This document shows positions 5,396-29,980 of a stretch of 33,387 bases of DNA, piece by piece; the stretch's first letter is position 1; each line of letters starts with the position of its first letter. The notes below the pieces were generated by a model that saw only the letters and a program-made list of their open reading frames with translations, was not told the origin of the DNA and did no database searches. Made by a program: the position numbers and the translations under genes. The DNA comes from Chitinophagaceae bacterium (GTDB lineage: Bacteria > Bacteroidota > Bacteroidia > Chitinophagales > Chitinophagaceae): positions 1-33,387 of the forward strand of contig JAIXOJ010000146.1 in assembly GCA_027486835.1 (NCBI GenBank), in the 5' to 3' direction.

Positions 5396-5883
5396 GATGG
5401 GTTTAATTATTTAAATTTTTTAGGTTGATATGCTAATCAATTGATTCAATCCTTACCCCCCAATCCTTTGTCCCCGTCCCCTGCCCCCCATCCCCTAAAG
5501 GAGTGTTGTGGGGCTGAGTGCCGTAGGATGGTGCAGGATGCTGGTGCTCAGACTTTGTACGATTTATACAATTAGTACAAAGGCAGCGCTAAAAAAAGGG
5601 GCTGTAGATATTTATGTAAAAGAACTGTCGTGAAGAGGTGCAAAACTGCTTGTAAACCACCGAAACCACACACCCCAAACATGCCAAAATCACACCCCAA
5701 ACGTGTCAAAATGTTGATTATCAAGGTTTTTTGGCTGGGTGATTCGCCACTGATGCACGAAAAGGGGCTGCCACAAATGCACGAATGATTTACCCCTTCT
5801 TACGTTTTTTGGTTTACCATCTTTATCATACAAGCAAAATGGCTAACCCAAACTTTTCCTAACCAATCAATTTTCAATTTTTG
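5396..5883. other. Non-coding gap with dispersed repeat fragments
   Basis: No gene is supported here. Visible pieces are a C-rich stretch with a CCCC...GGGG hairpin (about 5480-5516), two adjacent 22-bp units beginning ACACCCCAAAC (5670-5691 and 5692-5713), and the 17-mer GCCACAAATGCACGAAT at 5770-5786. The 17-mer recurs inverted at 14316-14332, which marks it as a dispersed repeat. Confidence 0.6.
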
Positions 5884-6352
5884 GCTTCAGCAAAGTTTGC
5901 TGAAGCAATTCTGTTTAACTTTTTTCATCAGCAAACTTTGCGGATTCCACAAAAAAGATTTTTTGGCGTCCGCAAAGTTTGCGGGCTGCTTTTTAACCAA
6001 AAAATGCTCCTAACAAAGCTTGCTAGCCCAATTTTGTTTAACTTTTTGCATCAGCAAACTTTGCGGATTAAACAAGAAAGATTTTTTGGCGTCCGCAAAG
6101 TTTGCGGGCTGCTTTTTAACCAAAAAATGCTCCCAGCAAAGCTTGCTAGCCCAATTTTGTTTAACTTTTTGCATCAGCAAACTTTGCGGATTAAACAAGA
6201 AAAATTTTTTGGCGTCCGCAAAGTTTGCGGAAGAATCTTGTTTAATTTTTGGCATCAGCAAAGTTTGCTACTTCCACAAAAAGCATTTTTTCGCATCAGC
6301 TAGGTTTGCTGCTTCCACATTTCATGAAAAATGCAATTAGCTAGGTTAGCGG
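5884..6352. repeat. Array of twelve 15-bp palindromes at 41-bp spacing within a 123-bp higher-order repeat
   Basis: Palindromes of the type CCGCAAAGTTTGCGG or CAGCAAAGTTTGCTG are centred at 5895, 5936, 5977, 6018, 6059, 6100, 6141, 6182, 6223, 6263, 6304 and 6345. All spacings are 41 bp except one of 40. Three successive variants (A, B, C) make a 123-bp unit that recurs with near identity at 5968, 6091 and 6214, taking the GTCCGC string as the reference point. The intervening 26-bp segments are A/T-rich and conserved between 123-bp units, so this is not a CRISPR array. Palindromes 10-12 are more degenerate. Open frames through the array exist on both strands only because 123 is a multiple of three. 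Adjacent palindromes B and C can also pair with each other as a 14-bp stem. Confidence 0.9.
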
Positions 6353-6494: not shown

Positions 6495-6535
6495 CAATTA
6501 CGAATTATCAATTAACAATTACGAATTATCAATTA
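6495..6535. repeat. Two 20-bp direct repeats, period 21 bp, overlapping the HTCS stop codon
   Basis: CAATTACGAATTATCAATTA occurs at 6495-6514 and 6516-6535. The second copy covers the stop codon of the first HTCS gene. Just upstream (about 6421-6463) is an AACCTCACCC...CCCCTCTCC string of the same dispersed family that fills the MITE-like elements near 20900 and 21970. Confidence 0.75.
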
Positions 6536-9500
6536 TTTCTTGTTTTCGCTTCTTGTGGGGTAATGCCGAACATGGTTTTGAACTGTTGGCTAAAATGCTG
6601 CATTTTAATGTAGCCTACTTCGTTCATCACGTCGCTTACTAGCATATTGGGTTGGGTGGTCAATAATTGGTAAGCATGGTGTAGCCGATAGTTACGGATA
6701 TATTTTGCTGGGGGCATGCCTGTTAATGCGGTCATTTTTCGGTAAAACTGGCTGCGGCTCATGAACATCTGCGTGGCGATGCTTTCAAACACCAAATCTT
6801 CTTTTTGAAGGTTGTTCAGAATCAATTGATCTACCGATTGCAGAAATTGGGCATCTAGGGTAGATAACGCAATTGGCTGCATATCTGTGGAAAGCGTAGT
6901 GTCTTCTTCCAGATTGGCCTCAATAACTGCCTCCTCCTCTTCTGTCGTTTCGGTATGGGGTCTTTCCCCTTCTTGTTGAAAGCGTTGCTGCATCCTCCTG
7001 CGGGCATCGAGCAATTGTTGCATCCTTATTTGTAGCTCTTGCGAATGAAAGGGCTTGCTCAAATAGGCATCGGCGCCCGTTTGATAGCCTTTTAGTTTCG
7101 CCTCAAGGCTTTGCTTGGCGGTTAGCAACACAATTGGAATATGGCTGGTGTTGATGTTGTTTTTGAGTTCATGCACCAGTTCGTAGCCATCTTTCAGCGG
7201 CATCATAAGGTCGCTAATAATAATGGTGGGTATTAATTCGATGGCCTTGTCAATCCCTTCTTGCCCATTGGCGGCTTCGTACACAGCATACCCAATTTGC
7301 TGCAAAATCATACTGATAAATACCCGCAGTTCATCATTGTCTTCCACCACTAATACACTTAGCTCCACCTCGTCGGCTGTCTCGTTAGGGTTATTGTTGC
7401 GATTAGCCGAAGCTTGCGTAACAATTTCTGGAGTTGTCCAAATACTTTGTCCGGGCGTATCGGTAATTAAGGAAGGCTTATGGATGTCTGCTGTTTCCTT
7501 CTCCTCCCCCATTGCTTGATGATTTGTTTCGGCAATATTGGGATAGGTAGGAAACTGGAGGGAAAAAAGGGTGCCTTGGCCAGGCTTGCTGCTCACTTTG
7601 ATGCTGCCATTGACCTGATCCACCAATTCTTTTACCAATGCTAACCCGATGCCGGTTCCTTCACCACGCCTAGTGCTGCTGTTGTCCACTTGGTAGAACC
7701 GACTGAATATGGCAGAAAGCTGGTTTTCGGGAATGCCGATGCCGGTGTCTGCCACTTCGAGTGTCCAAAAAGTTGCTCCTTGGGCAGCAATACTTACCGT
7801 GATTGTACCGCCACTTGGGGTAAACTTGATGGCATTGGACAAAAGATTATGGGTTATTTTTTCTAGCATGGGCTTGTCCACACTGGCTATAATGGTATTG
7901 GGAAAAGCATTGAACTGCAACTGTATTTTTTGTTGCTGCGCAGCCACAAAAAATGAGTCCATCACTGCTTTTACCAAGGGTACAATATCGCCTTCGGCAA
8001 AATGAAGGGTCATTTTACCCGCTTCTAGTTTGGAGATGTCGAGTAGGTTGTTGACCAAGCGCAACAAGCGAAGCGAATTATTGAAAATGGCTTGAACAAT
8101 GGGAGAATCTTTTAATTGGTTATCAGCCAATAAGATGCGGGCAGGTTCTACAATGAGGGTGAGAGGCGTGCGGAGTTCGTGGGTAATATTGGTAAAGAAC
8201 CGATTTTTAAATTCGTCTAATTCCAGCAACTGCCTAGCTTCTTTGTCCTTAAAGGCCAATTCATTGGCTTTGAGTGCCAGTTCATTTTTAAGGTTTATCC
8301 GCCTCAATTGAAAATAAAACAAGAGGTATATGGCAAAAACAGCCCCCAAAACATACAAACCATAAGCAAGGGTTGTACGCCACCAAGGGGGTGAAATGAT
8401 AAAAGAGATAGTGGTGACAGCAGGATTCCAATCACCATTTTCATTGGCATTGGTTACCAAGAGGGTGTAGCTACCTGGTGGCAAGTTGGGATAGCTTACT
8501 TCATTTCTTGAATCGGCATATACCCAATCTTTATCTATCCCATCCATACGATAGCGATAAATATTAACGCCCAATTTCTTGAAATTAGTAGCGGCAAAGC
8601 TGAGGTTGATAAAGTTTTGCTTGTAATTAAGGTTTATTGTTTTAGTATATTCTAAGGGTGTATGGAGGATATCATCGTTGCCTTTAAAATCCACCACTTG
8701 GTTATTGATTTTAAGTGAAGTAAAAAAAATAGGGGTGAAGCTGGTATCGAATTGCACCTCCTTTGGCTCAATGATGTTGATGCCGCTTACGCCTCCAAAA
8801 AACAGGCGGCCATCTTTGTGTTTGTAAAAAGAACCCGTGTTAAATTCATTGTCTTGCAAACCATCGGCCTCTGTGAAATTGTGGAAGAACCCTTTTTGGG
8901 GAATAAAGCAAGAAAGCCCATTGTTGGTGCTTAACCACAATCGCCCTAGGTGGTCGCGCAAAACACCATACACCACATTGTTGGGCAACCCTTCTTTGGT
9001 GGTGTAATGGGTGCAATTGCCAGTTGCTATGTCCATCTTTTCTAATCCTCCTCCCCTAGTGCCTAACCATAAGTATTTGTTGGGTTCGCTAGGATCTTCC
9101 ATAACCGACAACACTTGATTAATGCCCAATGACAACGGATTATTCGGCTGGTTTTGGAACAATTGGTGGCCGATGATGCCTTTTTGATTGATGTTGAGGT
9201 GGAGCAACCCCTGCTCGGTGGATAGCCATAAACTGCCATCGCCAGCTTCATATAGTTGCCTGACCAACGCAAAATTAGCCTGTGGCCCGAGTAAGGGAAG
9301 TAGGTTGTAAGTAGTGAAACTATCCTTATCCTTCCATTTGCATACCAACTTACCAATTTCTGGTGTCATCCAAACATTGTCTTTCCTATCAATGAGTATT
9401 TGAATGTCCAGATGATTGAGTTTAAGTGGTACTTGAAATTTTTGCTGCTGAATAGAAGAAAGGTAAATTGTTAAATTATATTTGTTATCGCTATAAAAAA

Positions 9501-10764
9501 AACAATCATGATTTTCTGTGGTCTGTTTCACGGCAAATACCCCTAGCATCTTTGTTTGATTGCCATAACTATAAATTTTCTTTTCGTCAAACTGCCGCAA
9601 AAAAAAAGGCACTTTGAATTGGCTCGTTTGGAAATCAGGGGCTTGGACAAACAGGTTGCCGTTATTCATAGCAGAAAAACGATACGCGCTCAAGTTGCCA
9701 ATTTTTTTAAAAGGAAGCCCACCTTCAATGCAACTAAAAATTCCATACCCGTTCGTCCCCATCCAAACCCTTTTTTGGCTGCCAAAAACGATGTTGCCTA
9801 TTTGTCCTTTCGGGGTTATTGGTTGATATTGGGCAGGCATAATACCCAAATCTTTTTGGCCAATGGCGGCAAACCCTTTGGCATAATTGAAATAGAATAC
9901 ATGGTTTGCATCCCTAAACACGCCTATACATTTTTGATCTCCATTTGGCAATCCTTCAAATTGTAAGACCCTTGAACTCAGTACTTTACCTTCTTTCAAT
10001 TCATAAAGTACACCTTCTTTTAACGACCATATACTTCCCGAAGAGGAATCAGCCCATAAAGGCGTTTCATTGTCGTTGTTTATGGTTAAATAAGCATCTA
10101 AACCCATATCGGTCAATGCTTTTGTGCGGAAATCATACTTTTTTAGCTTGCCATTTCCGTACAATCCAATTGAAAATGGATCTAATTTCAACACCTTTTG
10201 TGTGTAGCCTGGCTTTACCCATGTATTGTGTAATTGGTCAAGCTTGGTTATGGATACTCTGGCAATACTACCCACCTGCGCTGGAAACTCTTGGGGAATA
10301 ACCATTTCGAATAAGTCAGCCTCTTTGGCCAATAAATAACTACCCGATGTGGTTTCAATGATTTTAATAATCCCCAACCCATCAGATACTTGCTTGGGCA
10401 TTTTGGAAGTAATATTAGTAAAATGCCCCGTTCGTTTATCATAACAATTCAGGCCTCCATTATCCACACCAATCCAGATTAAACCTCTATTATCTTCAAA
10501 CAAGGTATTGATGGTGTTACCAGAAATGCTATGGCTATCGGCAGGGTTGTGTCTATAGATTTTAAATTTATACCCATCATATCGGTTCAATCCATCCAAA
10601 GTGCCTACCCAAAGAAAACCTTCTTTGTCTTGTAGCATACACATAATCATGCCTTGCGACAACCCCTCAGAAGTGGAGAGGTGGGCAATATTTAATTGGG
10701 CATTGCCTGGGGATGCAGTGCAAAGCAGCAATAAGCATATTAATGGCAGAATATGACGAACCAT
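6529..10764 (-). CDS. Hybrid two-component system sensor/regulator (HTCS, first copy, 1411 aa)
   Basis: One polypeptide holds an entire phosphorelay. With the start chosen at 10764 there is a clean signal peptide (residues 1-23, ending PGNAQ); an upstream ATG at 10800 would add 12 residues before it. A periplasmic two-propeller sensor of Reg_prop repeats (W-x-G-T-x-x-G-L-x-x motifs) runs to about residue 690. It is followed by a Y_Y_Y domain (about 710-793), one membrane helix (about 797-822), HisKA with the phospho-accepting His862 in THELRTPL, HATPase_c (N box NLLSNAIKF, G boxes DTGIGIPE and GTGIGLALV), a receiver with Asp1185 in ISDLMMP, an acidic linker and a C-terminal AraC-type HTH (about 1312-1410). 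Such proteins usually sense oligosaccharides and activate a neighbouring SusC/D locus; none is present, so the ligand and regulon are unknown. Confidence 0.95.
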   Translation of the reverse strand: MVRHILPLICLLLLCTASPGNAQLNIAHLSTSEGLSQGMIMCMLQDKEGFLWVGTLDGLNRYDGYKFKIYRHNPADSHSISGNTINTLFEDNRGLIWIGVDNGGLNCYDKRTGHFTNITSKMPKQVSDGLGIIKIIETTSGSYLLAKEADLFEMVIPQEFPAQVGSIARVSITKLDQLHNTWVKPGYTQKVLKLDPFSIGLYGNGKLKKYDFRTKALTDMGLDAYLTINNDNETPLWADSSSGSIWSLKEGVLYELKEGKVLSSRVLQFEGLPNGDQKCIGVFRDANHVFYFNYAKGFAAIGQKDLGIMPAQYQPITPKGQIGNIVFGSQKRVWMGTNGYGIFSCIEGGLPFKKIGNLSAYRFSAMNNGNLFVQAPDFQTSQFKVPFFLRQFDEKKIYSYGNQTKMLGVFAVKQTTENHDCFFYSDNKYNLTIYLSSIQQQKFQVPLKLNHLDIQILIDRKDNVWMTPEIGKLVCKWKDKDSFTTYNLLPLLGPQANFALVRQLYEAGDGSLWLSTEQGLLHLNINQKGIIGHQLFQNQPNNPLSLGINQVLSVMEDPSEPNKYLWLGTRGGGLEKMDIATGNCTHYTTKEGLPNNVVYGVLRDHLGRLWLSTNNGLSCFIPQKGFFHNFTEADGLQDNEFNTGSFYKHKDGRLFFGGVSGINIIEPKEVQFDTSFTPIFFTSLKINNQVVDFKGNDDILHTPLEYTKTINLNYKQNFINLSFAATNFKKLGVNIYRYRMDGIDKDWVYADSRNEVSYPNLPPGSYTLLVTNANENGDWNPAVTTISFIISPPWWRTTLAYGLYVLGAVFAIYLLFYFQLRRINLKNELALKANELAFKDKEARQLLELDEFKNRFFTNITHELRTPLTLIVEPARILLADNQLKDSPIVQAIFNNSLRLLRLVNNLLDISKLEAGKMTLHFAEGDIVPLVKAVMDSFFVAAQQQKIQLQFNAFPNTIIASVDKPMLEKITHNLLSNAIKFTPSGGTITVSIAAQGATFWTLEVADTGIGIPENQLSAIFSRFYQVDNSSTRRGEGTGIGLALVKELVDQVNGSIKVSSKPGQGTLFSLQFPTYPNIAETNHQAMGEEKETADIHKPSLITDTPGQSIWTTPEIVTQASANRNNNPNETADEVELSVLVVEDNDELRVFISMILQQIGYAVYEAANGQEGIDKAIELIPTIIISDLMMPLKDGYELVHELKNNINTSHIPIVLLTAKQSLEAKLKGYQTGADAYLSKPFHSQELQIRMQQLLDARRRMQQRFQQEGERPHTETTEEEEAVIEANLEEDTTLSTDMQPIALSTLDAQFLQSVDQLILNNLQKEDLVFESIATQMFMSRSQFYRKMTALTGMPPAKYIRNYRLHHAYQLLTTQPNMLVSDVMNEVGYIKMQHFSQQFKTMFGITPQEAKTRNN

Positions 10765-10800
10765 AGCAAAGAAAAAATGCGGGCGAATATATGGGGGCAA

Positions 10801-13135: not shown

Positions 13136-13840
13136 CTATTTCTTTTCGTTGATTTTAGCGATTAAATCTTCAATTTTGGAAGCAATTACAATACCAGGGA
13201 TGCTTACTGGTGCACCTAATTGTGCTAAAAAGCTACCTTTCACTTCACCAGTTTTGTAGGTAGTGAACCCTATACGATACAAGCCAACGGTTAATGCTTT
13301 CATTGGGTTGCTTACTTCGCTAGTGATGCGCATAAGAGAATTGTATTTACTACCACCTGGGTTAGTTGGCATTTCGCCACTATCATCATTCTTGTCAATG
13401 GTGTTCCAAGTAGCACTTTTTGCTTTGCTCTTGATGTCGTCTGCGCTTAAAATGCCAGATGCTTTGTCAAGGGCTATCCAAGTGTCAAAATAATTAGCCT
13501 TGTCAGCAGCATTTTTTTCGTAGTTAGCACTTACAAAATCTGTGGCAGTTGGTTTTTCAGATTCAGGTACTGGAGAAATCATCCGAATGCCTAATTCAGG
13601 TGCAGCCACTGGAATCCATACATACAAGTAGTAGTATTTTTTACCACCTTTTTCTTCATCTGGTTTGCTATCGCTAGCTACATAGCCATAATAGCTAACC
13701 AAAGAAGTGTAAGGGACCCTGATTTCTTTACCCATTATACTTTTCTTGCCCAAATCTGCACCAAACTTGCTCAATTTTTGAGCCTGCGCATTCATACATA
13801 CTGCCGCAATTACCAGCAGAGAAGTTAACTTTTTTACCAT
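13136..13840 (-). CDS. LipL32-family surface protein homologue (234 aa)
   Basis: The sequence matches the architecture of Leptospira LipL32, the most abundant leptospiral outer-surface protein, along its length. Landmarks are SYYGYV (49-54), KKYYYLYVWIP (67-77), ELGIRMISP (82-90), FDTWI (118-122), an Asp-containing loop IDKNDDSGE (148-156) where LipL32 has its acidic calcium-binding run, KYNSLMRI (165-172), GLYRIGFTTYKTGEVKGSF (186-204) and SIPG. The N-terminus is a signal peptide with cleavage after AQA (residue 20). The only cysteine, Cys15, has Val before it and lacks a good lipobox, so unlike LipL32 it is probably not lipidated. The gene is monocistronic, with an upstream 18-bp palindrome and a downstream terminator. 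Function in a non-spirochaete is unknown; a matrix or calcium-binding role is only inference. Confidence 0.88.
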   Translation of the reverse strand: MVKKLTSLLVIAAVCMNAQAQKLSKFGADLGKKSIMGKEIRVPYTSLVSYYGYVASDSKPDEEKGGKKYYYLYVWIPVAAPELGIRMISPVPESEKPTATDFVSANYEKNAADKANYFDTWIALDKASGILSADDIKSKAKSATWNTIDKNDDSGEMPTNPGGSKYNSLMRITSEVSNPMKALTVGLYRIGFTTYKTGEVKGSFLAQLGAPVSIPGIVIASKIEDLIAKINEKK

Positions 13841-13898: not shown

Positions 13899-14105
13899 AA
13901 AGATTCACTAAACTAAGGGGTGTTAAAATTTGCGCAAACGTCTTACACTGTTAGGTCAAAATAGTAATAAAGAAAAAATTTGCTTCAACTGGTGAGTAAA
14001 TACAACACAAAGAATGCTTTCAGTTGCCAATCCAGAGTAAGGTCGAATTAAAGAGGTGAAAATATTGTTAGAGTGTGATAGGTTTCTAAAAAAATATTTT
14101 CCGCA

Positions 14106-14228
14106 TAGCATTCCCAAAGTAGGAAAAGGGTAAAAATTGATTTTTATAGCATTCCCAAAGTAGGAAAGCAGTAAAAAACGTTTCGCTTAGCTTTCCCAAA
14201 ATAGGAATTGGGTAAAAATTGATTTACT
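14106..14228. repeat. Three-copy 41-bp repeat with a TTCCCAAAGTAGGAA dyad
   Basis: TAGCATTCCCAAAGTAGGAA and variants begin at 14106, 14147 and 14188, a period of exactly 41 bp. Each carries a TTCC...GGAA dyad followed by GGGTAAAAATTGATTT or a variant. The period equals that of the palindrome array at 5884-6352 although the sequence differs. The remainder of 13899-14341 holds no gene; a 17-mer dispersed repeat lies at 14316-14332. Confidence 0.85.
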
Positions 14229-14341: not shown

Positions 14342-14755
14342 TTAGGCTTCATTGCTTTTTTCGGCTTCGCCTTCTACTTCATCAAAGGGTTCCCATAGCT
14401 CTATTTTGTTCCCTTCTGGATCCATGATGTGTACAAATTTTCCGTAGTCAAATGTTTCAATAGCATCTAAAACGGTAACGCCTTCTTGTTTTAATAAGTC
14501 CACTAATAACTCCAAGTTTTCCACTCGATAGTTAATCATAAATTCTTTGGTGGATGGGTCGAAGTATTTGGTTTTTGCGTCAAAGGCATTCCATGCAGTA
14601 GCACCTTTTTTTGTGGGATCATCGGCATGTCGCCACTCAAAACTGGCACCCCATTGGTTGATGTCAATACCAAGGTGGTTTTTATACCATTCATTGGTTT
14701 TCTTGGGGTCTGCACTTTTAAAAAATACGCCTCCGATTCCTGTTACTCTTTTCAT
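14342..14755 (-). CDS. VOC-superfamily (glyoxalase/bleomycin-resistance-like) protein, 137 aa
   Basis: The chain has two beta-alpha-beta-beta-beta units typical of the vicinal oxygen chelate fold. The first opens with GIGGVFFKSADPKKTNEWY, and the second ends with the family signature MDPEGNKIELWEP, whose Glu is the usual metal ligand. A WGASFEWRHADD segment occupies the first-module edge. The acidic C-terminal tail (EVEGEAEKSNEA) is not part of the fold. Members act as lyases, dioxygenases or binding proteins, so the reaction cannot be named. The gene is isolated from its neighbours and no terminator was found after it. Confidence 0.85.
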   Translation of the reverse strand: MKRVTGIGGVFFKSADPKKTNEWYKNHLGIDINQWGASFEWRHADDPTKKGATAWNAFDAKTKYFDPSTKEFMINYRVENLELLVDLLKQEGVTVLDAIETFDYGKFVHIMDPEGNKIELWEPFDEVEGEAEKSNEA

Positions 14756-15033: not shown

Positions 15034-17601
15034 TTAATGTTTTTCGGGGTGGGCAGGATTGGTTTTAGGTAAAGCCTTAGGTAAATTACTAGGGGGTAAG
15101 TGCGCTGGTGGTTTGTTTCCTGCGGGAGGAGAAGTGGGTAATGGTTTTGATTTGGGGTCATGCACCGCTGGGTTTTTAGGGTCTGCCACTTTTTTTGGAT
15201 CAATAGGCTTGGTGGTGGCAGGCTTCGTTTCTGTTGATTTAGGGAAATCAGACTCCGCAGATATATCGGTTGAAGGTTTGATGTCTTTGGGTATGTCTAT
15301 ACTGTAGTCGGAAGAATTGGCTGCCCCATCTTCGCCCTCAGGAGCGGCGGCAGGTAGGGTATTGTTCATCGACTTAAAGGCATCTTCTATCATATCATTA
15401 CCCATCGACTCTGGTTTTACGAAAGTGGAGTTGGGGTCTATACCGTCTAAGTTGTGGTCTTGCAACACCTTCTCGTAGAAATAAGCCCAGATTGGCATCG
15501 CAGCTTGGGAACCTTGTCCCAGCGTGGTGGAGTGAATACGGATAAAGCGATCGTCATTGCCCACCCATACACCACCTAGCAATTGAGGCGTATATCCCAT
15601 AAACCAAGCGTCGCTGTTGTCGTTGGTAGTACCTGTTTTTCCTGCTATTTCGCCTTGTACGTCATATTGCCAAATGCTTCTGCCCGTACCATATTTCATT
15701 ACGCCTTGCATCATTTTAATGATGGAATATGCGGTAATATCGCTAATAACTTCTTTCCGCTGAGGCAAGAAGCTCTCGATAGTATTTCCATTTTTATCTT
15801 CTATTCTAGTGATGAATATGGGCTTTACATTAAATCCTCTTCCTGGCAACATGCTGTACGCCTGCATCATTTCATACAAAGAAATTTCGCAAGCTCCTAA
15901 TGCAATGGATGGATTGGGGTCTATTTTGGTTTGGAGGCCGCATTTGTTGTTTAAGAAATCTACAAAACGTTTGGCGGAATTGTTGCCTACATTATCCAAC
16001 TGTTTTAGGATATAAGCAGTAGCGCAGTTTTTAGATCTTGCCAATGCCTCTGCCATCGGCATAGCAGCACCCGAGCATGACTTTGGTGTTGCTGGCACCA
16101 TGCCAAAAGAACCAAAACTCTGTTGTTGGTCATACACAGTGGTATTGGGGGTAAACCCTGCCTCTTCAATGGCAAGACTATACAACAATGGTTTCATGGT
16201 AGAACCTACCTGACGTTTTGTATTAAAATTTACGTGATCGTACTTAAAGGTTTTAAAATCAATTCCTCCAACCCAAGCTCTTATTTCACCACTTTGTGCA
16301 TCCATAGCCATAAAGCCACTTTCCATCATTTGTCGATGGTATTTGATGGAGTCCATTGGGGTCATGATGGTATCTGTGGAGCGTTGGTTGTTCCAAGCAA
16401 ACACTTTCATGCGAACGGGGATGTAAAAATTTCTGACCACATCTTCGTCTTTCATCCCTTCTTTTTTCAAAGCCCGCCAGCGTTCACTCTGTCTCATGCC
16501 CGCATCTAATACATTCTGATAATCTTTCCAAACACTGCCATCTTTTATGTCAGATTGGGCATTAAGCAGCTTTTGCATGTAACTCATGTGCTTGGCCACT
16601 GCTTCCTCGGCATAAAGTTGCATTCTAGGATTGATGGTAGTGTAAATCTTTAGTCCATCGCGATACAAATCGTAATTGTCACCATTGCTTTTGGGGTGGT
16701 CTTTGCACCATTTTTTCATTTCTTCGCCCAACACCATTCTAAAATAAGGACCAAGACCTGTGGTTTCGTCCAGCTTTTTATAATTAAGTTCAATAGGGCG
16801 GAGCTTTAAGGCACTAGCTTCCACAGCAGTTAAGAAATTGTTTCTCACCATTTGATCCAACACCACATTGCGCCTGTCCAACGATTTTTTAGGATATACC
16901 CGTGGGTTATAGAGATTGGAACCCTTTAGCATTCCAATTAATACAGCCGCTTCTTCTACACTTAAACGGTCGGGTTCTTTTTGAAAAAACGTTTTGGCCG
17001 CATTTCTTATTCCAAATACATTGTCGCCAAAGGGTACGGTGTTTAAATAAAGCGTGAGTATTTCCTCTTTGGTAAAATTCTGTTCTAGTTTAATGGAAAT
17101 GATCGCTTCTTTTAATTTCTGGAGCGAGCGGATTACTTTGTTTCGTTTATAGCGGGTAAACAAATTCTTGGCTGTCTGCATGGTAATGGTACTGGCTCCT
17201 CCTTCTTTCCCTAAGTAAACGAAAGCCCTTGTCAATGCTTTTCCGTCTATACCGCTGTGCCTATAAAAACGTTCGTCTTCTGTGGCAATAAGGGCATTGA
17301 TTACATGCTTACTAATGTCTTTGTATTCCACATTAACCCTGTCTTCCAAATAAAACTTACCCATGAGTGTTCCATCTTGGGCGTACACTTGGGTTGATTG
17401 ATTGGCCGATGGATTTTGGATATCATCAATGGAAGGCATATCTCCCAAAAAGCCGAAGTTGGCCATTAGGATAATGATGATAACCAAACCAAAAAGCCCA
17501 AAAAAGATGCGCCAAAATATCTTAACTGCTGTTGACATGGTACGAGGTTGTTCCTTTTGAAAAGGTGTAGGGTTTACACTATTCTTTCTTTTGTTACTCA
17601 T
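15034..17601 (-). CDS. Class A penicillin-binding protein (transglycosylase/transpeptidase, PBP1A-like, 855 aa)
   Basis: This is a bifunctional peptidoglycan synthase anchored in the inner membrane and acting in the periplasm. A basic N-terminus precedes one membrane helix (about 25-53). The GT51 glycosyltransferase follows (about 70-250), with catalytic Glu108 in ATEDERFYRHSG and the GASTITMQ motif. The transpeptidase domain (about 420-735) has Ser467 in the S-T-M-K tetrad, the SKN triad in ARSKNCATAY, and Lys655 in the KTGTT box. A Pro/Lys/Ser-rich tail of about 110 residues, probably disordered, ends the protein. Its start codon overlaps the stop of the upstream porW/sprE-like gene by one base (TAATG), which implies translational coupling, and a strong terminator follows. 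All active-site residues are present. Confidence 0.95.
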   Translation of the reverse strand: MSNKRKNSVNPTPFQKEQPRTMSTAVKIFWRIFFGLFGLVIIIILMANFGFLGDMPSIDDIQNPSANQSTQVYAQDGTLMGKFYLEDRVNVEYKDISKHVINALIATEDERFYRHSGIDGKALTRAFVYLGKEGGASTITMQTAKNLFTRYKRNKVIRSLQKLKEAIISIKLEQNFTKEEILTLYLNTVPFGDNVFGIRNAAKTFFQKEPDRLSVEEAAVLIGMLKGSNLYNPRVYPKKSLDRRNVVLDQMVRNNFLTAVEASALKLRPIELNYKKLDETTGLGPYFRMVLGEEMKKWCKDHPKSNGDNYDLYRDGLKIYTTINPRMQLYAEEAVAKHMSYMQKLLNAQSDIKDGSVWKDYQNVLDAGMRQSERWRALKKEGMKDEDVVRNFYIPVRMKVFAWNNQRSTDTIMTPMDSIKYHRQMMESGFMAMDAQSGEIRAWVGGIDFKTFKYDHVNFNTKRQVGSTMKPLLYSLAIEEAGFTPNTTVYDQQQSFGSFGMVPATPKSCSGAAMPMAEALARSKNCATAYILKQLDNVGNNSAKRFVDFLNNKCGLQTKIDPNPSIALGACEISLYEMMQAYSMLPGRGFNVKPIFITRIEDKNGNTIESFLPQRKEVISDITAYSIIKMMQGVMKYGTGRSIWQYDVQGEIAGKTGTTNDNSDAWFMGYTPQLLGGVWVGNDDRFIRIHSTTLGQGSQAAMPIWAYFYEKVLQDHNLDGIDPNSTFVKPESMGNDMIEDAFKSMNNTLPAAAPEGEDGAANSSDYSIDIPKDIKPSTDISAESDFPKSTETKPATTKPIDPKKVADPKNPAVHDPKSKPLPTSPPAGNKPPAHLPPSNLPKALPKTNPAHPEKH

Positions 17602-20600
17602 TAAAATTTACCGGGTAGTACTTTCTTTAAAAACTTATTGTATTGAACCACATCTTTTGTCTTTTGAAGTACCAAAAGATTGCTGCCACTGATTATGCTG
17701 AGTTTGAATTTATAACTAGGCAACCAAGGAATGATGGTAGTGCGCATGGATTTTTTGGCTTTATCCAAATAGGCCATTGCATCTGCGGCATTTTCCAAAG
17801 GCCCCAAATACAAGAAAGCATATTGATCGTTGATTTTTTCAGACGCGATATCTATTTGTCGGGACGGATAAGTACTCTTATTGTAAATATCAAACGAATT
17901 GGCCGCTCGATTAATAAATACATTATCCACATCGTCCAGTTGCAAAATGGCATAATGGGGCTCTAGCGGGTCATACATAAATGTGTCTTGTTCCTTAGCA
18001 ACCACACTATCTTTCTTAGGCACTTTTTGGGTGGTGTCTATAGCTGGTTTGAGTACTGGCTGTGCAGGAGGAATGGTAGGCTTTGAAGGTTTTATCACGG
18101 GATTTACTTTCTTTATCAGCGTATCTTTTCCCTTGGTAATGGTATCTTTCAATGGCTTGAGGTGCGCTAAGGAATCAATGGCTGCAATGCTATCCCTTGT
18201 TCTTGCTTCCAAGGAATCTCTTAGGCGTTTAGCCCGCCATCCTCTTTCGCGCAGCAATTCTATCATGCGTATTGCTTTTTCTGTAAGTGGGGTATTCGGA
18301 AATGTATTTACTAACGATTCTAGCCTATCTATTGCGGTTGAATCGTCATTGGCTTTTATATAATAGACCGATTCAATGAACAACAATTGGGGTGTCCAAT
18401 AGCTTTTTCCATATTTCTTATCTGCCTCTGCTTTGGCCACTTTGGCATTTTCAAAATTGCCTTTCACAAATGTATTGTACACGTGCTGATAGGCAACTGT
18501 GGTATCATCTTGTTCGCCGGGCAACTTGGGTTTAGCATCCAGCAATGCGGTGTACTTACCATTGGGAAACTGAGTCCGCAACACTTTGGTAATGGAGTCT
18601 GCTCGCATGGTTAAGCCCAACTGTCGGTAGCAATAAATCAGGTTATAAATACCCTGCTCCACTTTTTCATTTTTGGGAAACTTGTGCAGAAATGGTTCAT
18701 AATGATTGACAGCAGACTGAAAATCTCTCAGGTTATTTTGAAAAACAAGTCCATTGCTAAACAATGCTTTGGCAATGGCACTATCCGATTCAGCCATTTG
18801 ATCTTCCCTTAGGGGCACATCACGCATAAAACCTTCAAAGCTTAAATCTTTGGGTTCTTCGCTTTTAGGAGCACTATTTCTGTTAGGCGGAATTATAGAA
18901 TTAGGTATCGGGTCAATATCGTTGCCTACTTGTAAATTCATATCGCTAGGAGAAGCATCTGGTGTGCTAGGCGGTGGTGATTTTGGTGCACTGGTTTTGG
19001 TTACAGCCGACTGCCTCCGCCAGTTGTCCACATTGGGGCGATTACCCCATTTACTTTTCCATTCTGTGAAACCCACTTGTTTCACGTTAGTATTGTTAAA
19101 GTAAAAATCGTTCTTGCTATTGGCACTGAATAGCTCTGTGGGCTGCGCCGCGCTACCAGCAGAACCTTCAAACGAACTACCCTCGCTGCCAAAGTCAACC
19201 ACATCCGATTCTTTCAAGCCTTCTGCTTTGCGTAGTTTCTTGAGTAATTTTTTAATGTAGATATTGCGTTCTGCTTCGGACATTTTGGCAATTCGTTGCA
19301 GGCTATCTTGGGTTTCTAGGGTGGTGAAATTTTCCGTAATCACCGCCAATGCAGATTTTCTTTCCTCTACTCGCCTTTTGTCCGTTTCGTTCAGTGTATT
19401 GGTTTGTACACTGTCGTAGTAATTGTACGAAGGTTTATACACTTTGGTGTCGAAATAGGTGTCTGCCAGTAGTAGTAATGTTTTTTGTCTTTGCTCAGGA
19501 TTGTCGGAATTATACTTCAAACTTTTTTGCAGGGCTGAAATGCCCCCATTGGTGTTTTTCTGTTTCAACTCTAGCAATGCCGCAGCATAATACAACACAT
19601 CCCGATAGTTATAAAACCGCTCTTTTCTGGCCAACCGATATACTTCATCAATATTATCCTGAGGGGTATACCCTTTTTTGGTGGAGGAAAGGCTCACCAT
19701 GTCCAATCGGGCAAAAGCCTCCATTAGCGGGTCTGTGGCATCTTGGATACTTTTCTCATAAAAATGTCTGGCAAGGGAGTCATTGTTTTTGGTCATGCCA
19801 TACAATTGGGCAATTAGAAACTCCCACCTAGCTTTTTCTCCAATATCGGCTGCTTGGGGCAATGCCCTAGTCAAATGCCAAGCGGCACTGTCGTTCACTT
19901 GTTGTTTGTAATAAGACAGGGCCATTACCTCATGGAAAAAAGGCATCAATCGCTTAGGAAACATTTGGTCAATTCTAAGTAGTCCAATCAAACCATTGGC
20001 ATCGGCCATTCTGTTTTGTTCGAGTAAAACCCTAATTCGCCAGAGAAAGCTTTCGTTGCGGCTGATGGGATTATTGAATATTCTGGCCAACCTCGATTTT
20101 TTTTCAGGAGTAGAAATGCTAAACACACCATTGGGATTGCTGATGTTACTCCCAATAGGCAAGTCATAACCATCCACTTTGGCCGCCCAGGCATAGTTGA
20201 TGTATTGAAAAACATAGCCAGCAGAATCAAGGAATTTTTTATAGAGGTAGGTTCTGCCCATCAGCATGTACATATTGTCCACCCAATCGTCCCTTAAATC
20301 GTGCAATAGGATGGCGGCAGTGCATTTATAAATAACCGAATCAATTTGTTCTTTGTCTAGGGCGGTGTTGTCAAGGGTGTAGTTATAAAAAGGAAGTAGT
20401 TGGGTGTAGTCGTCTTTGTTTAATTTTTTAGCCTTTTCCAGTATTTCGTTCACTTTGTTATTGGCATTAAAGTGGTAGTTGTAATGCGTAAACGTGTTTT
20501 GAAACAGTCTTTTTACCGGCCTAATTTTTCCTTCTCCTGTTTTTTCGGAAAGGAGGAGTCTGTTTTTGTATTTAGCTGGCTTTAATTTATATAAATCGAT

Positions 20601-20687
20601 ACTTGAATTGGGTTGAGCAAAGCAAAACATCACCCATGCAAACAATGTGGTGAACAAAACAAAAGAATACCGGGCACATTTCATCAT
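17601..20687 (-). CDS. PorW/SprE-family T9SS and gliding-motility TPR protein (1028 aa)
   Basis: The order of parts resembles PorW of Porphyromonas and SprE of Flavobacterium, which are needed for type IX secretion and gliding. There is an N-terminal export signal, the conserved FQNTFTHYNYHFNANNKV segment (about 63-80), a long set of TPR-like helices (about 100-480), and a Ser/Pro-rich low-complexity stretch (about 550-620). A second TPR block (about 640-830) follows, then a Lys/Pro-rich linker with repeated KPxxP (about 860-905), and a C-terminal domain ending in FLKKVLPGKF. PorW is a lipoprotein, but here the signal (FAWVMFCFAQ) has Phe before Cys and fits signal peptidase I cleavage better, so lipidation is doubtful. 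The gene starts the operon with the penicillin-binding protein. Family identity is by motif and layout, not alignment. Confidence 0.8.
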   Translation of the reverse strand: MMKCARYSFVLFTTLFAWVMFCFAQPNSSIDLYKLKPAKYKNRLLLSEKTGEGKIRPVKRLFQNTFTHYNYHFNANNKVNEILEKAKKLNKDDYTQLLPFYNYTLDNTALDKEQIDSVIYKCTAAILLHDLRDDWVDNMYMLMGRTYLYKKFLDSAGYVFQYINYAWAAKVDGYDLPIGSNISNPNGVFSISTPEKKSRLARIFNNPISRNESFLWRIRVLLEQNRMADANGLIGLLRIDQMFPKRLMPFFHEVMALSYYKQQVNDSAAWHLTRALPQAADIGEKARWEFLIAQLYGMTKNNDSLARHFYEKSIQDATDPLMEAFARLDMVSLSSTKKGYTPQDNIDEVYRLARKERFYNYRDVLYYAAALLELKQKNTNGGISALQKSLKYNSDNPEQRQKTLLLLADTYFDTKVYKPSYNYYDSVQTNTLNETDKRRVEERKSALAVITENFTTLETQDSLQRIAKMSEAERNIYIKKLLKKLRKAEGLKESDVVDFGSEGSSFEGSAGSAAQPTELFSANSKNDFYFNNTNVKQVGFTEWKSKWGNRPNVDNWRRQSAVTKTSAPKSPPPSTPDASPSDMNLQVGNDIDPIPNSIIPPNRNSAPKSEEPKDLSFEGFMRDVPLREDQMAESDSAIAKALFSNGLVFQNNLRDFQSAVNHYEPFLHKFPKNEKVEQGIYNLIYCYRQLGLTMRADSITKVLRTQFPNGKYTALLDAKPKLPGEQDDTTVAYQHVYNTFVKGNFENAKVAKAEADKKYGKSYWTPQLLFIESVYYIKANDDSTAIDRLESLVNTFPNTPLTEKAIRMIELLRERGWRAKRLRDSLEARTRDSIAAIDSLAHLKPLKDTITKGKDTLIKKVNPVIKPSKPTIPPAQPVLKPAIDTTQKVPKKDSVVAKEQDTFMYDPLEPHYAILQLDDVDNVFINRAANSFDIYNKSTYPSRQIDIASEKINDQYAFLYLGPLENAADAMAYLDKAKKSMRTTIIPWLPSYKFKLSIISGSNLLVLQKTKDVVQYNKFLKKVLPGKF

Positions 20688-23995: not shown

Positions 23996-25162
23996 TTAAT
24001 CATCATCCAAACTAAATGTTTTTTTAAGCAAAAGCTTTTGCTCCTTATTTCCAATTTTGTTTTCCAATGTTTTTTGGTTGTTGTGTTTTACCATAATTAA
24101 GATCAAGGGAACAAGTCGATTGGCAACTTTATTTTGCTCTAACTTTTGTATTACTAATGGTATTATTTCTGGTTGAGAAATAACACATCGTGACAGATAA
24201 TCAGCAACAGCGAATGCGGGCATATGGCCCAAATAAATCTCATGAGTTAACTGAATTCCCAAGCTCTGGTTTACTGTGAAAGAATTAAGCAATTCATTTT
24301 CTACATGAATGTTTTTTAATTGCTCAACTATCGGTTCTATTCGTTCGCTTAAAAATTGAATTAATACTTCACGGCTTGGGCTTTGATCTGCATAAAGTGC
24401 AGACCACTCTTTAGTTGCAGCATTAAATGGTTGCAAGACCCCTTTGAGCTGTGTTCTGATCGTTTTTAATTCCAACGCGCCAATACCTCTGATATTAGGT
24501 ATGGAAAAACAATACTGATGAAGCAGGGTTAAACCATCATCTTGAATAATATCTTCTTGTAATGGAGGCGTTTCTTCGCTTGAAATACTTTCTATAACAC
24601 TTTCATAATCCAAAAATTGAACAAGTAAATTACCTTGCTTGAAATTGGTGGGAGAAAAGATAAGTTGATAGTATTGTTCGGCTATGGCCTCTATTTTTCT
24701 CTGTGCCCGAGTTCCTCCAATTACCCCAATCTGGGCAAACTTTTGAACTACTGCCCCATCATTACATAAAAGGGGGGCAAAATGATAGAATCCATATTGC
24801 TTCATGGTTTCAACAAAGTTTTCTGTGGTAATTTCAAATATTCTTGATAAAGATTTTTCTGTTGCAGCCATGATTTGTATAAGCTCTTTATCTGCGAACT
24901 TAATTTGCTGACGAATTTTCAACAATTCTCTCATTTTACTTATCGTGTCTAATGGCTTATCATCATAGTAAGGATCTATTTCCATCCAATCTGCTTTTTG
25001 CTGGATAGTCATCAACTTTAACGTCTTTTCTAGCTGTAACAGGGAAAACAAATCGCCCGCTGCAAATACCTTTTCTGCAAATAGGTAGGTAATTATTAAG
25101 GTTTCTCTACCCATTACCATCTTCTCACCAGTGTTCGCAATGGAAATATTAATCGAGTTCAT
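23996..25162 (-). CDS. Unrecognised 388-aa protein, mostly alpha-helical
   Basis: I do not recognise this family. There is no signal peptide or membrane segment, so it is probably cytosolic. The chain looks largely alpha-helical, is rich in Leu, Ile, Glu and Gln, and contains a possible helix-hairpin-like string NIRGIGALELKTI (about residue 225). It ends in the acidic tag KKTFSLDDD. Met1, Met15 and Met17 are all possible starts; the longest frame is given. Directly upstream on the same strand, the sequence at 25231-25261 encodes a nearly identical C-terminal tag (KKAISLDDD), with matching DNA around it, which suggests a former tandem duplicate. No neighbour suggests a function. Confidence 0.75.
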   Translation of the reverse strand: MNSINISIANTGEKMVMGRETLIITYLFAEKVFAAGDLFSLLQLEKTLKLMTIQQKADWMEIDPYYDDKPLDTISKMRELLKIRQQIKFADKELIQIMAATEKSLSRIFEITTENFVETMKQYGFYHFAPLLCNDGAVVQKFAQIGVIGGTRAQRKIEAIAEQYYQLIFSPTNFKQGNLLVQFLDYESVIESISSEETPPLQEDIIQDDGLTLLHQYCFSIPNIRGIGALELKTIRTQLKGVLQPFNAATKEWSALYADQSPSREVLIQFLSERIEPIVEQLKNIHVENELLNSFTVNQSLGIQLTHEIYLGHMPAFAVADYLSRCVISQPEIIPLVIQKLEQNKVANRLVPLILIMVKHNNQKTLENKIGNKEQKLLLKKTFSLDDD

Positions 25163-25779: not shown

Positions 25780-25822
25780 CGCCATCTTTACCTTCTATAG
25801 TTGAAAACGATTGCATTGTATT

Positions 25823-28800
25823 ATGAAGAGATTAAGCCTTTTGGTATTCCTGCCTTTAGTATGGCTACACATTGCATTAGCTAACGAAAACGATGAAATC
25901 AGTAGTTCATCAGGCAACTTTATTGTGCCTAATTTACTGTTTAAACGGTTTTATAGCTCCAATGGTTTACCCGACGAGCGTATCCGTTCTATTTACCAAG
26001 ACCACAACGGTTACTTATGGATTGGCACCATGAATGGTATTTGTCGTTACGATGGTTATACTTTCAAAAACTTTTTCAAAACAAAAAACGATAAAAGCAT
26101 TGCTGGCAACTGGGCTTACACCATTACCGAAGATGCCAGCTACAACATTTGGATTGGCACCAACGAGGGTTTTAGCAAGTTTGATCAACAAACCGAAACA
26201 TTTGTCAATTATACGCTACCCAATCAAAAGCTTACTCAGCAATCTAAAAGGGTGAATACTTTGCACTTTGATAAACAAGGTAATCTATGGATAGGTGGTA
26301 AACTTGGTCTCACTCAATATAACCCGAAAACCAATCAATTTCAATCGTTCAAAAAGCCTCACCTTAACGTAAATATCTCTAAAATAATTGAGTCAATTAA
26401 TGGCCAACTATGGATTGCTTGCGATGATGGTATCGTTCACTTCAATACGACTACCAGTGCATACGAATTTTTCCAACTTTCCATAAAACCCAATGCCTAT
26501 GGGGACAAAATCTGGAGTTTGTTAGAAGATAAAAAAGACCTCTACATTGCAACTGCAAGTTCAGGATTAGTGCAACTACCACACCTTGCCAATGGGAAAT
26601 ATGGCAGTTTTAAAAGTTTAAACAGTTATGCCACCAGCAATGAAACATTAGAAAATACCCAAGTTTTCGATATTTCCAAATCAGCTACAGGCGACCTATG
26701 GTTGGGCACAGAACGTGGATTAGCTAAAATAGAACACGTTAACCAACCCCAAGCGGCCCTCTTTTATTTTAGAAACAACTCCGTAAATGCGAAAAGCATC
26801 AGCAGCGATCGCGTTTATAGTGTGTTTATAGACAAAACCAACGTGCTTTGGTGTGGTACAGAAGTAGGATTAAATAATCTACACCTTTCTGCCTTGCCCT
26901 TTCATTATTACAGCTTCACAGGTCAAAAATTAACTGATCAAATAAGGGGAGTATTCACAAACGATGGCAAACAAATTTGGCTAGCCACTTATAAATCTGG
27001 CTTTTTCAATTATAACCTCGAAACCAATACCACCACTGCATACAATGTAAAACCAGACAACTCCTCCTTAAACGGCACTCGATCGGTTCTTGCGCAAGAC
27101 AACTCTGTACTAATTGGCTCCCTGAATGGTATCATCAAAATGGCCAACAATGGAAAAAGTGGATACACTAATTTACTAAGTGGCCATGCAGTTTTTGCAT
27201 TGTATAAAGACCATCTGGGCAACATATGGATTGGCACAAACAATGGATTACTAAAAATGACCTCCAATGGTACCATCACCGATTATGCCAGTAAGTTTGC
27301 CAGTGTAAAAGGGTTCACTTCTTCTTTTGTAAGAACCGTATTTGAAGATGCAAATGGCAATATCTGGGTAGGATTTGAAAATGGAGGAGTTGGTGTGATT
27401 GATGCTATATCAGACCTACCAACCGCTTTGCATTTCAATAACAAGCAAGAGGGAATTTTTGGTAGCTCTATTTATAGTATTGCTGAGTATCCAAAAAATA
27501 CCATGTGGATAGGTTCGGAAAGTGGGTTGACAAAATTGCAGTTGACAGATGGTAAAAATAGATTCGACAATATTGCCTTTAAGAATTTTTCCATTCAAAA
27601 CGGACTGCCCGATAAATCGGTAAATGGTATTTTAACTGATGATAGCGGCCATCTTTGGATTAGTACCATCAAGGGATTAGTAAAATTCAATTGTGCTACG
27701 GAAATTTGTCAAAATTACCTGCCCAATATTTATTTTAACCATAGCTGCTGTTTCAAACGCAACAACCACCAATTCTTTTTTGGCACTTCCGATGGGTTTA
27801 TCAGCTTCGATCCTTCTGCTATTGTCGAAGATAAATTCATCCCCGATGTGGTCATTTCCGACATTAAGTTATTTAACCAACCCATTAGCATCAATGATGC
27901 TTTTAATGGACAGGTGGTGCTAAACCAATCTTTATCTAATACCAAAAAACTCGTCTTTAATTACAAGAACAACGTTTTTACCCTCGATTTTGCAGCCCTT
28001 CATTTTGCCAATCCCGACCAAAATAAGTTTGCCTATATGATGGAGGGTTTTGACAAAACCTGGATTCAAACAACTGCGGCCAACAGGAGTGCTACTTATA
28101 CCAATTTAGACCCAGGCACGTATACGTTTAAATTGAAAGCTGCTAATTATTTAGGCACTTGGAATGAGCAAGCAACAGAAATTACCATTGTAATACTCCC
28201 ACCCTTTTGGAAAACATGGTGGGCAATGACCATCTATGGCATTCTCGCAATAGCCTTCCTTTATGTATTTACCAAGTATGTACTTAGCCAAATTAGGCAA
28301 CGGCATAAACTGAGGTACGAGTTAATGGAAAAGAATCAGCTTAAAAAATTAGATGCTATGAAAACCCAGTTTTTCACCGACATCTCCCATGAATTTCGAA
28401 CCCCTTTGTCACTCATTGTTGGGCCCGCCGAAGAAATGCTTACTAATAGCAAGCTGGATGTAGATGCCAAACACAAGGCACAATTAATTCACCGCAACAG
28501 TAAAAAATTATTATACCTAATAGATGAACTCATGACCTTTCAAAAGCTGGACGAAGGTCAATTGCAGTTAAAACCTCAGTTGGTAGAGATGGTCACATTT
28601 GTAGAGGATGTGTTTAAAAACTTTCAACACCTGGCTGAGAAAAAAGCCATCAATTTCACCTTCAATACCGATAATGATCGTTATCTAGCCAATATAGATC
28701 CTGGTAAAATGGAAATGGTGCTCAATAATCTTTTGTTTAATGCTTTTAAATACGCCCCCGAGAAAGGTAGCATACAAATTAATATCCAACAATGTCTCCA

Positions 28801-29980
28801 GAATACTTTACCAACAAAGCCCAGCAGGGAGTCGGAACGTTGGCTACAGGTCTCAGTTGAAGACAATGGAAAGGGCATTTCAGCGTCGGATTTCAGCCAT
28901 CTATTCGAGCGATATTTTCAAAGTAATAATGCCATCAAAGGCACTGGTGTTGGTTTATCGCTTACTAAAAACTTGGTAGAGTTACATGGTGGTGTTATCA
29001 CCGCAAACAGTACCCCAGGAGTTAAAACCAGTTTTGCCTTCTTCCTTCCTATGGGCAATCAAGAAGCAACAGCAGATATTGCTGAAACAAAGAACTATAT
29101 CCTCGATTATAATGTGGATGACTTGGTGGACGACTCTGTACTCACAGCGGATGAACACCTAGGGCGCACCAAATCCAAGCATAATTTATTGTTAGTGGAT
29201 GACAATGTAGAAGTTCTTGACTATCTGGAAATGGTCTTCCAAAATCAATACAATGTGGCTCGTGCAGAAAATGGAGTACTTGCTTTGGAATACCTAAAAG
29301 ACCATGAACCAGATTTAATCATTAGCGATGTGATGATGCCAGAAATGGATGGCATTTCCCTTTGCAAATCCATCAAAAACAATGTGGACATTTCACATAT
29401 CCCTGTTATTTTATTGACGGCCAAAGCCACCATTGAAAATACACTTCAAGGTTTACAATTTGGGGCAGATGATTACATGCCAAAACCTTTTAATCCAGAG
29501 GTTTTAAAGGCAAAAGTGTTCAATTTCATTGAAGCCAAAAAAAGGCTGATTGAGAAATTTACCCAAACAGAGGGCGGCGTAGTCATCCCCAAAAACATTA
29601 CCCATAATCCACTGGACGAAGCCTTCTTGCAAAACGTACTAGAGGCCATTAATGCCAATATGGACAACGAGGAATTTAGTGTGGAAGAGCTTGGCAGCAT
29701 GGTGGCGATGAGCCGCAGTAATTTGTTTAGAAAATTAAAAGCCATTACTGGTCAAACACCTGTAGAGTTTATTTATTTTATTCGGATGAATAAAGCCATG
29801 GAATTATTACTCGAAAGAAAGCACAGTATATCTCAAATTTCATTCGAAGTGGGTTTCAAAAGCCCTTCCTCCTTTACCAAATCGTTCAAGAAGCAATTTG
29901 GTAAAGCCCCTACGGAATTTTTAAACGATGCCATTGCCAAACAAAAAGAAATAGACAAAGAATATGAAGACGAAGAATAG
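25823..29980 (+). CDS. Hybrid two-component system sensor/regulator (HTCS, second copy, 1385 aa)
   Basis: The ATG at 25823 gives a proper signal peptide (MKRLSLLVFLPLVWLHIALA); a TTG four codons earlier is unlikely. The periplasmic part has Reg_prop propeller repeats (YLWIGTMNGICRYDGY and many W-I-G-T-x-x-G-L variants) to about residue 670, then Y_Y_Y (about 713-795) and one membrane helix (about 797-822). The cytosolic part has HisKA with His856 in DISHEFRTPLS, HATPase_c with N box NNLLFNAFKYAP and G boxes EDNGKGIS and GTGVGLSL, a receiver with Asp1169 in ISDVMMPEMDG, and an AraC-type HTH (about 1275-1385) with an acidic end (KEYEDEE). It differs clearly from the first HTCS in sequence, so it is no recent duplicate. 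No SusC/D or enzyme cluster is adjacent. Confidence 0.95.
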   Translation: MKRLSLLVFLPLVWLHIALANENDEISSSSGNFIVPNLLFKRFYSSNGLPDERIRSIYQDHNGYLWIGTMNGICRYDGYTFKNFFKTKNDKSIAGNWAYTITEDASYNIWIGTNEGFSKFDQQTETFVNYTLPNQKLTQQSKRVNTLHFDKQGNLWIGGKLGLTQYNPKTNQFQSFKKPHLNVNISKIIESINGQLWIACDDGIVHFNTTTSAYEFFQLSIKPNAYGDKIWSLLEDKKDLYIATASSGLVQLPHLANGKYGSFKSLNSYATSNETLENTQVFDISKSATGDLWLGTERGLAKIEHVNQPQAALFYFRNNSVNAKSISSDRVYSVFIDKTNVLWCGTEVGLNNLHLSALPFHYYSFTGQKLTDQIRGVFTNDGKQIWLATYKSGFFNYNLETNTTTAYNVKPDNSSLNGTRSVLAQDNSVLIGSLNGIIKMANNGKSGYTNLLSGHAVFALYKDHLGNIWIGTNNGLLKMTSNGTITDYASKFASVKGFTSSFVRTVFEDANGNIWVGFENGGVGVIDAISDLPTALHFNNKQEGIFGSSIYSIAEYPKNTMWIGSESGLTKLQLTDGKNRFDNIAFKNFSIQNGLPDKSVNGILTDDSGHLWISTIKGLVKFNCATEICQNYLPNIYFNHSCCFKRNNHQFFFGTSDGFISFDPSAIVEDKFIPDVVISDIKLFNQPISINDAFNGQVVLNQSLSNTKKLVFNYKNNVFTLDFAALHFANPDQNKFAYMMEGFDKTWIQTTAANRSATYTNLDPGTYTFKLKAANYLGTWNEQATEITIVILPPFWKTWWAMTIYGILAIAFLYVFTKYVLSQIRQRHKLRYELMEKNQLKKLDAMKTQFFTDISHEFRTPLSLIVGPAEEMLTNSKLDVDAKHKAQLIHRNSKKLLYLIDELMTFQKLDEGQLQLKPQLVEMVTFVEDVFKNFQHLAEKKAINFTFNTDNDRYLANIDPGKMEMVLNNLLFNAFKYAPEKGSIQINIQQCLQNTLPTKPSRESERWLQVSVEDNGKGISASDFSHLFERYFQSNNAIKGTGVGLSLTKNLVELHGGVITANSTPGVKTSFAFFLPMGNQEATADIAETKNYILDYNVDDLVDDSVLTADEHLGRTKSKHNLLLVDDNVEVLDYLEMVFQNQYNVARAENGVLALEYLKDHEPDLIISDVMMPEMDGISLCKSIKNNVDISHIPVILLTAKATIENTLQGLQFGADDYMPKPFNPEVLKAKVFNFIEAKKRLIEKFTQTEGGVVIPKNITHNPLDEAFLQNVLEAINANMDNEEFSVEELGSMVAMSRSNLFRKLKAITGQTPVEFIYFIRMNKAMELLLERKHSISQISFEVGFKSPSSFTKSFKKQFGKAPTEFLNDAIAKQKEIDKEYEDEE

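Follow-up and report, generated by a model that had tools for sequence, protein, structure and literature searches.

A LipL32-family gene in a Chitinophagaceae bacterium, predicted to encode an exported protein without a lipid anchor

Orthologues of LipL32, the major outer-membrane protein of Leptospira, were listed in 2014 by Gardiner et al. from six gammaproteobacteria, from Treponema brennaborense and from four Bacteroidetes, namely Cellulophaga algicola, C. lytica, Formosa agariphila and Ulvibacter sp. SCB49 (PMC4080168, Table 2), and the distribution was already called patchy in that account. An experimental function of the family outside Leptospira comes from the same source and is the attachment of Pseudoalteromonas tunicata to extracellular matrix and to an alga (PMC4080168). 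The Ca2+ ligands of LipL32 have been given as D132, T133, D164, D165 and Y178 (PMC8951592, PMC5566480).

A LipL32-family gene from a Chitinophagaceae bacterium was compared with these proteins. The window, meaning the whole stretch of DNA that was analysed, is 33,387 nucleotides long (contig JAIXOJ010000146.1 of assembly GCA_027486835.1).

Family assignment, predicted fold and calcium site

The LipL32-family ORF is intact, with an ATG start and a TAG stop (Table 1). The 234-aa product matched the Pfam family Lipl32 (PF12103) with 257.7 bits (E 6.1e-77, profile positions 1-179 of 179) against a cut-off of 25, and a sequence search matched it to the LipL32 chains 2zz8, 3frl and 2wfk of the PDB at E ~1e-34, rising to E 1e-51 with a family profile. 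The resemblance to LipL32 is therefore not due to chance, and by its sequence the product is a true relative with strong homology. The original prediction had been of a LipL32 homologue in a Bacteroidota genome, and these scores, which are far from non-significant, bear it out. The gene was the sole LipL32-family match in the source genome. Against the NCBIfam LipL32 equivalog NF038394 the product scored 136.2 bits, short of the cut-off of 300, so that the window copy is not a LipL32 equivalog by NCBI's rule. A carbohydrate-binding module in the PDB (4v17) was also considered as a relative and rejected, its matches (E 0.2 and 0.13) not being significant.

Table 1. Features of the LipL32-family gene in window coordinates
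Feature	Position	Strand	Basis
LipL32-family gene, 234 aa	13136..13840	-	ORF list, Pfam, PDB sequence matches
Lipl32 (PF12103) domain, residues 38-219, full profile 1-179	13184..13729	-	Pfam
Putative Sec signal peptide, residues 1-20, inferred signal-peptidase-I cleavage AQA/Q21 (Gln at +1)	13781..13840	-	by eye and pattern count, no predictor
D119 and T120 codons, aligned with LipL32 Ca2+ ligands D132 and T133	13481..13486	-	alignment
D152 and D153 codons, aligned with Ca2+ ligands D164 and D165	13382..13387	-	alignment
Y166 codon, aligned with Ca2+ ligand Y178	13343..13345	-	alignment
Possible intrinsic terminator, GGCATCC ... GGATGCC then T run, directly 3' of the stop codon	13085..13112	-	by eye

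Part of the hairpin of the possible terminator was also found by a terminator scan, which gave two sites in the region against 1.6 expected, a count that alone is not significant. A Bacteroidota promoter pattern had no match within the 33-kb window.

An AlphaFold2 model was computed from the window protein and 27 relatives. The mean pLDDT was 82.3 and the pTM 0.77, with residues 1-3 and 19-35 below 50. When the model was compared with the PDB by Foldseek, the best eight matches were all LipL32 chains (E 3.9e-18 to 2.0e-14), and the ninth stood at E 4.7e-3. TM-scores to LipL32 were 0.63-0.66 by query length, with rmsd values of 4.4-5.6. The predicted model thus led back to the LipL32 crystal fold and not to an unlike one, which supports a LipL32 jelly-roll fold for the window protein.

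All five published Ca2+ ligand positions of LipL32 are kept in the window protein by alignment, D164 and D165 of LipL32 having been placed by counting from D132 on the aligned PDB fragment. The ligand columns were counted over 79 rows, comprising the window copy, L095 and 77 of the 78 loci found in named genomes (L046 was left out). The D, T, D and D columns were unchanged in every row, and Tyr was present in 78. Seven further spirochaete rows kept the three Asp columns throughout, Thr in five cases and Tyr in six. From these positions we infer that the window protein may bind Ca2+.

In another genome (G810), a very diverged gene of the family (L094; 81.3 bits) directly adjoins a normal copy (L090). 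Two of its calcium-ligand columns are altered, Thr being replaced by Pro and Tyr by Leu.

The acidic loop had been described in the original prediction as much shorter than that of LipL32, which proved incorrect as to length. From the Asp of FDT to the Tyr of YNS, 47 positions were counted in the window protein and 45 in L093, a 272-residue spirochaete copy that resembles Leptospira LipL32; the equivalent segment of LipL32, D132 to Y178, has 46 by published numbering, and the loop is therefore not shorter. Only its Asp content is lower, with NDD in the window protein versus a run of DDDDDGDD in LipL32, and N-D-D was found in 79/79 rows of the ligand alignment. The stretches that are shorter than in LipL32 are the region before GLYRI, where a 12-column insertion is absent, and the C-terminal tail. 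The two proteins are alike in whole-domain homology, in predicted fold, in the five ligand positions and in the GLYRI.FTTYK.GEVKGSF block.

Signal peptide and probable location

A lipobox is absent from the N terminus of the window protein, which reads MVKKLTSLLVIAAVCMNAQA/QK with the slash marking the inferred cleavage. Its one Cys, C15, stands in the context A-A-V-C, and the apparent signal-peptidase-I (SPI) site AQA/Q21 lies downstream of it. The suggestion that the copy lacks a usable lipobox was thus upheld, with an apparent SPI site in its place.

Signal-peptide patterns were then counted over 77 Bacteroidota rows (75 named-genome loci, the window copy and L095), many of which are close Aquimarina or Flavobacterium copies and so not independent. 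An SPI-like site followed by Gln was present in 75 of the 77, the window copy included, the exceptions being L031 and L033; the pattern is permissive, and was also found in both Ignavibacteriota rows and in two of the eight spirochaete rows. Cys preceded by Gly, Ala or Ser ([GAS]Cys) at residues 15-30 occurred in 0/77 Bacteroidota, 0/2 Ignavibacteriota and 5/8 spirochaete rows, L093 among the last. A strict lipobox pattern was found in two of the eight spirochaete rows and in no other row. Given these counts, the missing lipobox characterises the Bacteroidota branch as a whole rather than the window copy in particular. LipL32 of Leptospira differs in this respect, since the window protein has no lipid-anchor Cys and carries the SPI site and Gln instead.

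A Gln directly after the SPI site is the Bacteroidetes Q-rule (Bochtler et al. 2018, PMC5837995), which a 2023 paper ties to protein stability (PMC10653852). By pattern, with no predictor, the window protein has this Gln at +1. The rule is described as restricted to Bacteroidetes and as failing for the FCB group as a whole (PMC5837995), which makes the two Ignavibacteriota-labelled rows with a Gln site an oddity.

No T9SS sorting tail was found in the window protein with Pfam or NCBIfam at E 0.001; two other proteins of the window matched the Pfam T9SS sorting tail, just above the cut-off. The sequence features support a non-lipidated exported form. With no lipid-anchor Cys and no T9SS tail found, the protein is most simply read as soluble in the periplasm, and it is most likely a soluble Ca2+-binding protein of jelly-roll type, periplasmic or secreted. 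That it is a lipoprotein lipidated at Cys-15, a residue that does stand after a hydrophobic stretch, is very unlikely: the preceding residue is Val, not Gly, Ala or Ser, and other Bacteroidota copies with no Cys in the signal peptide (L008 and L013, for example) nevertheless retain AxA/Q.

Distribution, phylogeny and gene neighbourhood

In the named-genome scan, 80 of 120 confirmed relatives were retained, giving 78 loci. By record title these comprised 75 Bacteroidota, two Ignavibacteriae and one Brevinematales, with best-segment identities to the window protein of 50-68%; no gammaproteobacterial and no named Leptospira copy was among the 78 listed. The original prediction had presented the gene as extending the family to a further phylum. 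This could not be maintained in view of that majority and of the four Bacteroidetes published in 2014 (PMC4080168), and the window gene belongs, as an ordinary member, to a family already known and of patchy occurrence.

Among groups of related genomes, each count including the centre genome itself, the family was present in 1/13 genomes of the source genus, 1/59 relatives, 2/396 genomes of the order and 1/395 of the phylum. It was found in 2/19 genomes of the family of a Chitinophagaceae-labelled genome (G796), in 7/247 genomes of the phylum to which the Brevinematales genome G794 belongs, and in none of 14 control genomes. The LipL32 gene is accessory in its genus.

In each of five Aquimarina records a single contig carries two genes of the family, separated by about 10-14 kb (L042/L056, L043/L073, L048/L067, L050/L065 and L055/L062). 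L042 and L056, the only such pair in the tree, fall in two subgroups.

The phylogeny was calculated with and without L094, a very long row; the trees cover no gammaproteobacterial copy. With L094 as its root, the 65-row tree placed the window copy in a group of 24 rows labelled Flavobacterium, Chryseobacterium or Chitinophagaceae (96/88), and the spirochaetes formed two groups off an open fork. In the 64-row tree, lacking L094, the seven spirochaete rows were split from all others by a branch at 99/92. The same 24-row Bacteroidota group, with the window copy inside, was recovered at 85/81. No starred set of half the rows or fewer contained the window copy in this tree. The nearest rows by path were labelled Chitinophagaceae, Flavobacterium and Chryseobacterium, not the marine group. 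Because several long branches meet, the deep branching order is unsure. In a 28-row alignment, identities to the window protein ran from 65% down to 47%, the nearest Bacteroidota copies standing at 62-65%. Identity to the LipL32 fragment was ~46%, and the ranges overlap, with 47% for the Bacteroidota copy L080 and 50% for the Brevinematales copy L041.

These results bear on a recent acquisition from Leptospira or another spirochaete. The patchy presence (one of 13 genus genomes and two of 396 order genomes) would fit such an event; Gardiner et al. hold that the gene was transferred across distant lineages and found that the P. tunicata copy groups with Leptospira (PMC4080168), and another paper, citing Gardiner, says in passing that this copy very likely came from Leptospira (PMC5240218). 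For the window copy, however, the phylogeny called for in the original prediction pointed away from a recent transfer, as the copy groups with Bacteroidota and not with spirochaetes. The separation is clear without L094, and the 24-row group is also held with L094, though the spirochaetes are there in two groups. The higher identity to the nearest Bacteroidota copies than to the LipL32 fragment, overlapping ranges notwithstanding, and the Bacteroidota-type signal peptide argue in the same direction. Tree position, identity and the type of signal peptide thus led us to reject a recent transfer from Leptospira, and recent acquisition from any spirochaete is extremely improbable.

The neighbours of the LipL32 gene encode a GNAT acetyltransferase on one side and a glyoxalase-like protein on the other; nearby are genes for a penicillin-binding protein (PBP) and for the T9SS protein PorW/SprE (17601-20687, above the NCBIfam cut-off). 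PorW/SprE and the two window proteins with a T9SS sorting tail mark the genome as one of Bacteroidota. The PBP was matched in 13/13 genomes of the genus, the glyoxalase in four (two with an internal stop) and LipL32 in one, which marks an accessory spot beside a core gene. The best PBP match was 76-82% identical in 11 of the 12 other genus genomes, and the last of them gave 59% over a fragment; a contaminant contig is unlikely in view of these matches. An empty-site comparison (tblastn, E 1e-5, matches of 35% identity or below dropped) covered 0.3 to 13.8 kb per genome downstream of the PBP, several of these stretches being ended by the contig, and in ten genus relatives it gave no metF, GNAT, LipL32 or glyoxalase match. 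The spot downstream of the PBP is variable. A mobile element was considered and rejected, no LipL32 relative having been found in plasmids, phages or, by pattern-limited scans, viral_contigs. The G+C content of the LipL32 gene was 0.396 versus 0.402 for the window, and its GC3 0.349 versus 0.43-0.44 for the PBP, SprE and ffh genes.

Other features of the window were also recorded. Three imperfect copies of a 41-base repeat lie between the LipL32 and glyoxalase genes (14103-14225). Relatives of it occur on at least three other contigs, C107 (three places), C45 and C67, with 40 of 64 candidates scored, and it therefore has the look of a repeat family scattered over the genome. At 6529-10800 and 25811-29980 the window encodes two large hybrid two-component regulators with propeller, kinase, receiver and AraC-type domains. 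A 388-aa ORF at 23996-25162 had no Pfam or NCBIfam match at E 0.001, and its G+C of 0.353 (GC3 0.316) was the lowest of the ten genes measured.

Over 79 loci, window included, no family-wide gene neighbourhood was found. The largest neighbour cluster covered 22 of the loci, all of the marine group, and the next 18, Flavobacterium and kin; some marine-group clusters span families. Six window neighbours were tested for clustering with genes of the other loci, and a match emerged for the glyoxalase-like gene alone, in L031 (1/78). The neighbourhood gives no clear clue to a partner of the LipL32 protein.

At L031, the glyoxalase-like gene (5858-6232) is 62% identical to that of the window (14342-14755) and likewise adjoins the LipL32 gene, although it is placed downstream there and encoded on the other strand. 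Upstream of the LipL32 gene in L003 and 16 other loci, mostly Flavobacterium, are genes that we take to be gldF-, gldG- and dnaN-like, and in 18 loci a presumably mnmE-like gene lies downstream. A gene that reads from its sequence as a response regulator lies within 5 kb of the LipL32 gene in nine marine-group loci of several families (L053, L059, L064, L069, L074, L075, L076, L079 and L080).

Proposed role and significance

The window protein resembles the LipL32-like proteins of Flavobacterium, Aquimarina and other Bacteroidota, with which it shares family, similar length, the SPI site with Gln and the calcium ligand positions; no notable difference from them was seen. The Cellulophaga, Formosa and Ulvibacter copies of Gardiner et al. 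2014 were likened by description, and Formosa algae (L074) by sequence. PtlL32 of P. tunicata belongs to the same family by the published account (PMC4080168) and was compared by description only.

We consider it probable that the gene encodes a Bacteroidota-branch LipL32 protein that is Sec-exported, SPI-cut and folded as a Ca2+ jelly roll, and that serves as an accessory envelope binding protein, probably soluble in the periplasm. After export by Sec, signal peptidase I would cleave the protein behind residue 20 (AQA) and expose Gln-21, which would probably be cyclised to pyroglutamate in keeping with the Bacteroidetes Q-rule. The mature protein would adopt the jelly-roll fold of LipL32, built around a single Ca2+. 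Since it has neither a lipid-anchor Cys nor a detected T9SS tail, it would most likely stay soluble in the periplasm or leave by another route. There it may serve the envelope as an accessory binding protein stabilised by Ca2+, for which any ligand is a guess.

The main rival is a surface or released adhesin for eukaryotic or organic surfaces. Several of the 78 record titles name genera (Aquimarina, Winogradskyella and Formosa, for example) known from algae, sponges or seawater. The model for such a role is PtlL32, as deletion of ptlL32 in P. tunicata markedly affected extracellular-matrix binding and cut algal colonisation (PMC4080168), and a review places LipL32 under cell adhesion (PMC7857515). 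Without a lipobox or a detected T9SS sorting tail, however, it is not evident how the window protein would reach the surface; in Leptospira, LipL32 has been reported as mostly or wholly sub-surface (PMC3544172), and the rows nearest to the window copy are not those of the marine group. We therefore regard an adhesin as unlikely here, and a Ca2+-stabilised soluble envelope binding protein is favoured.

For the family, a wider reading is put forward tentatively, as a possibility we hold to be somewhat doubtful. Bacteroidota and Ignavibacteriota may hold a large unlipidated, secreted LipL32 branch, with a Gln-type signal peptide and an intact calcium site, and the lipid anchor, the long Asp run and the extra C-terminal segments may be later additions on the spirochaete side. 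If this is true, the older role of the family would be a soluble calcium-dependent envelope function and not host adhesion. The literature searched, which is thin in subscription papers, yielded no published account of Bacteroidota LipL32 signal peptides, and the shared non-lipoprotein signal peptide of the Bacteroidota copies is a modest addition to the distribution of 2014. The unlipidated Bacteroidota version would offer a tractable setting in which to study the work of the LipL32 fold without infection.
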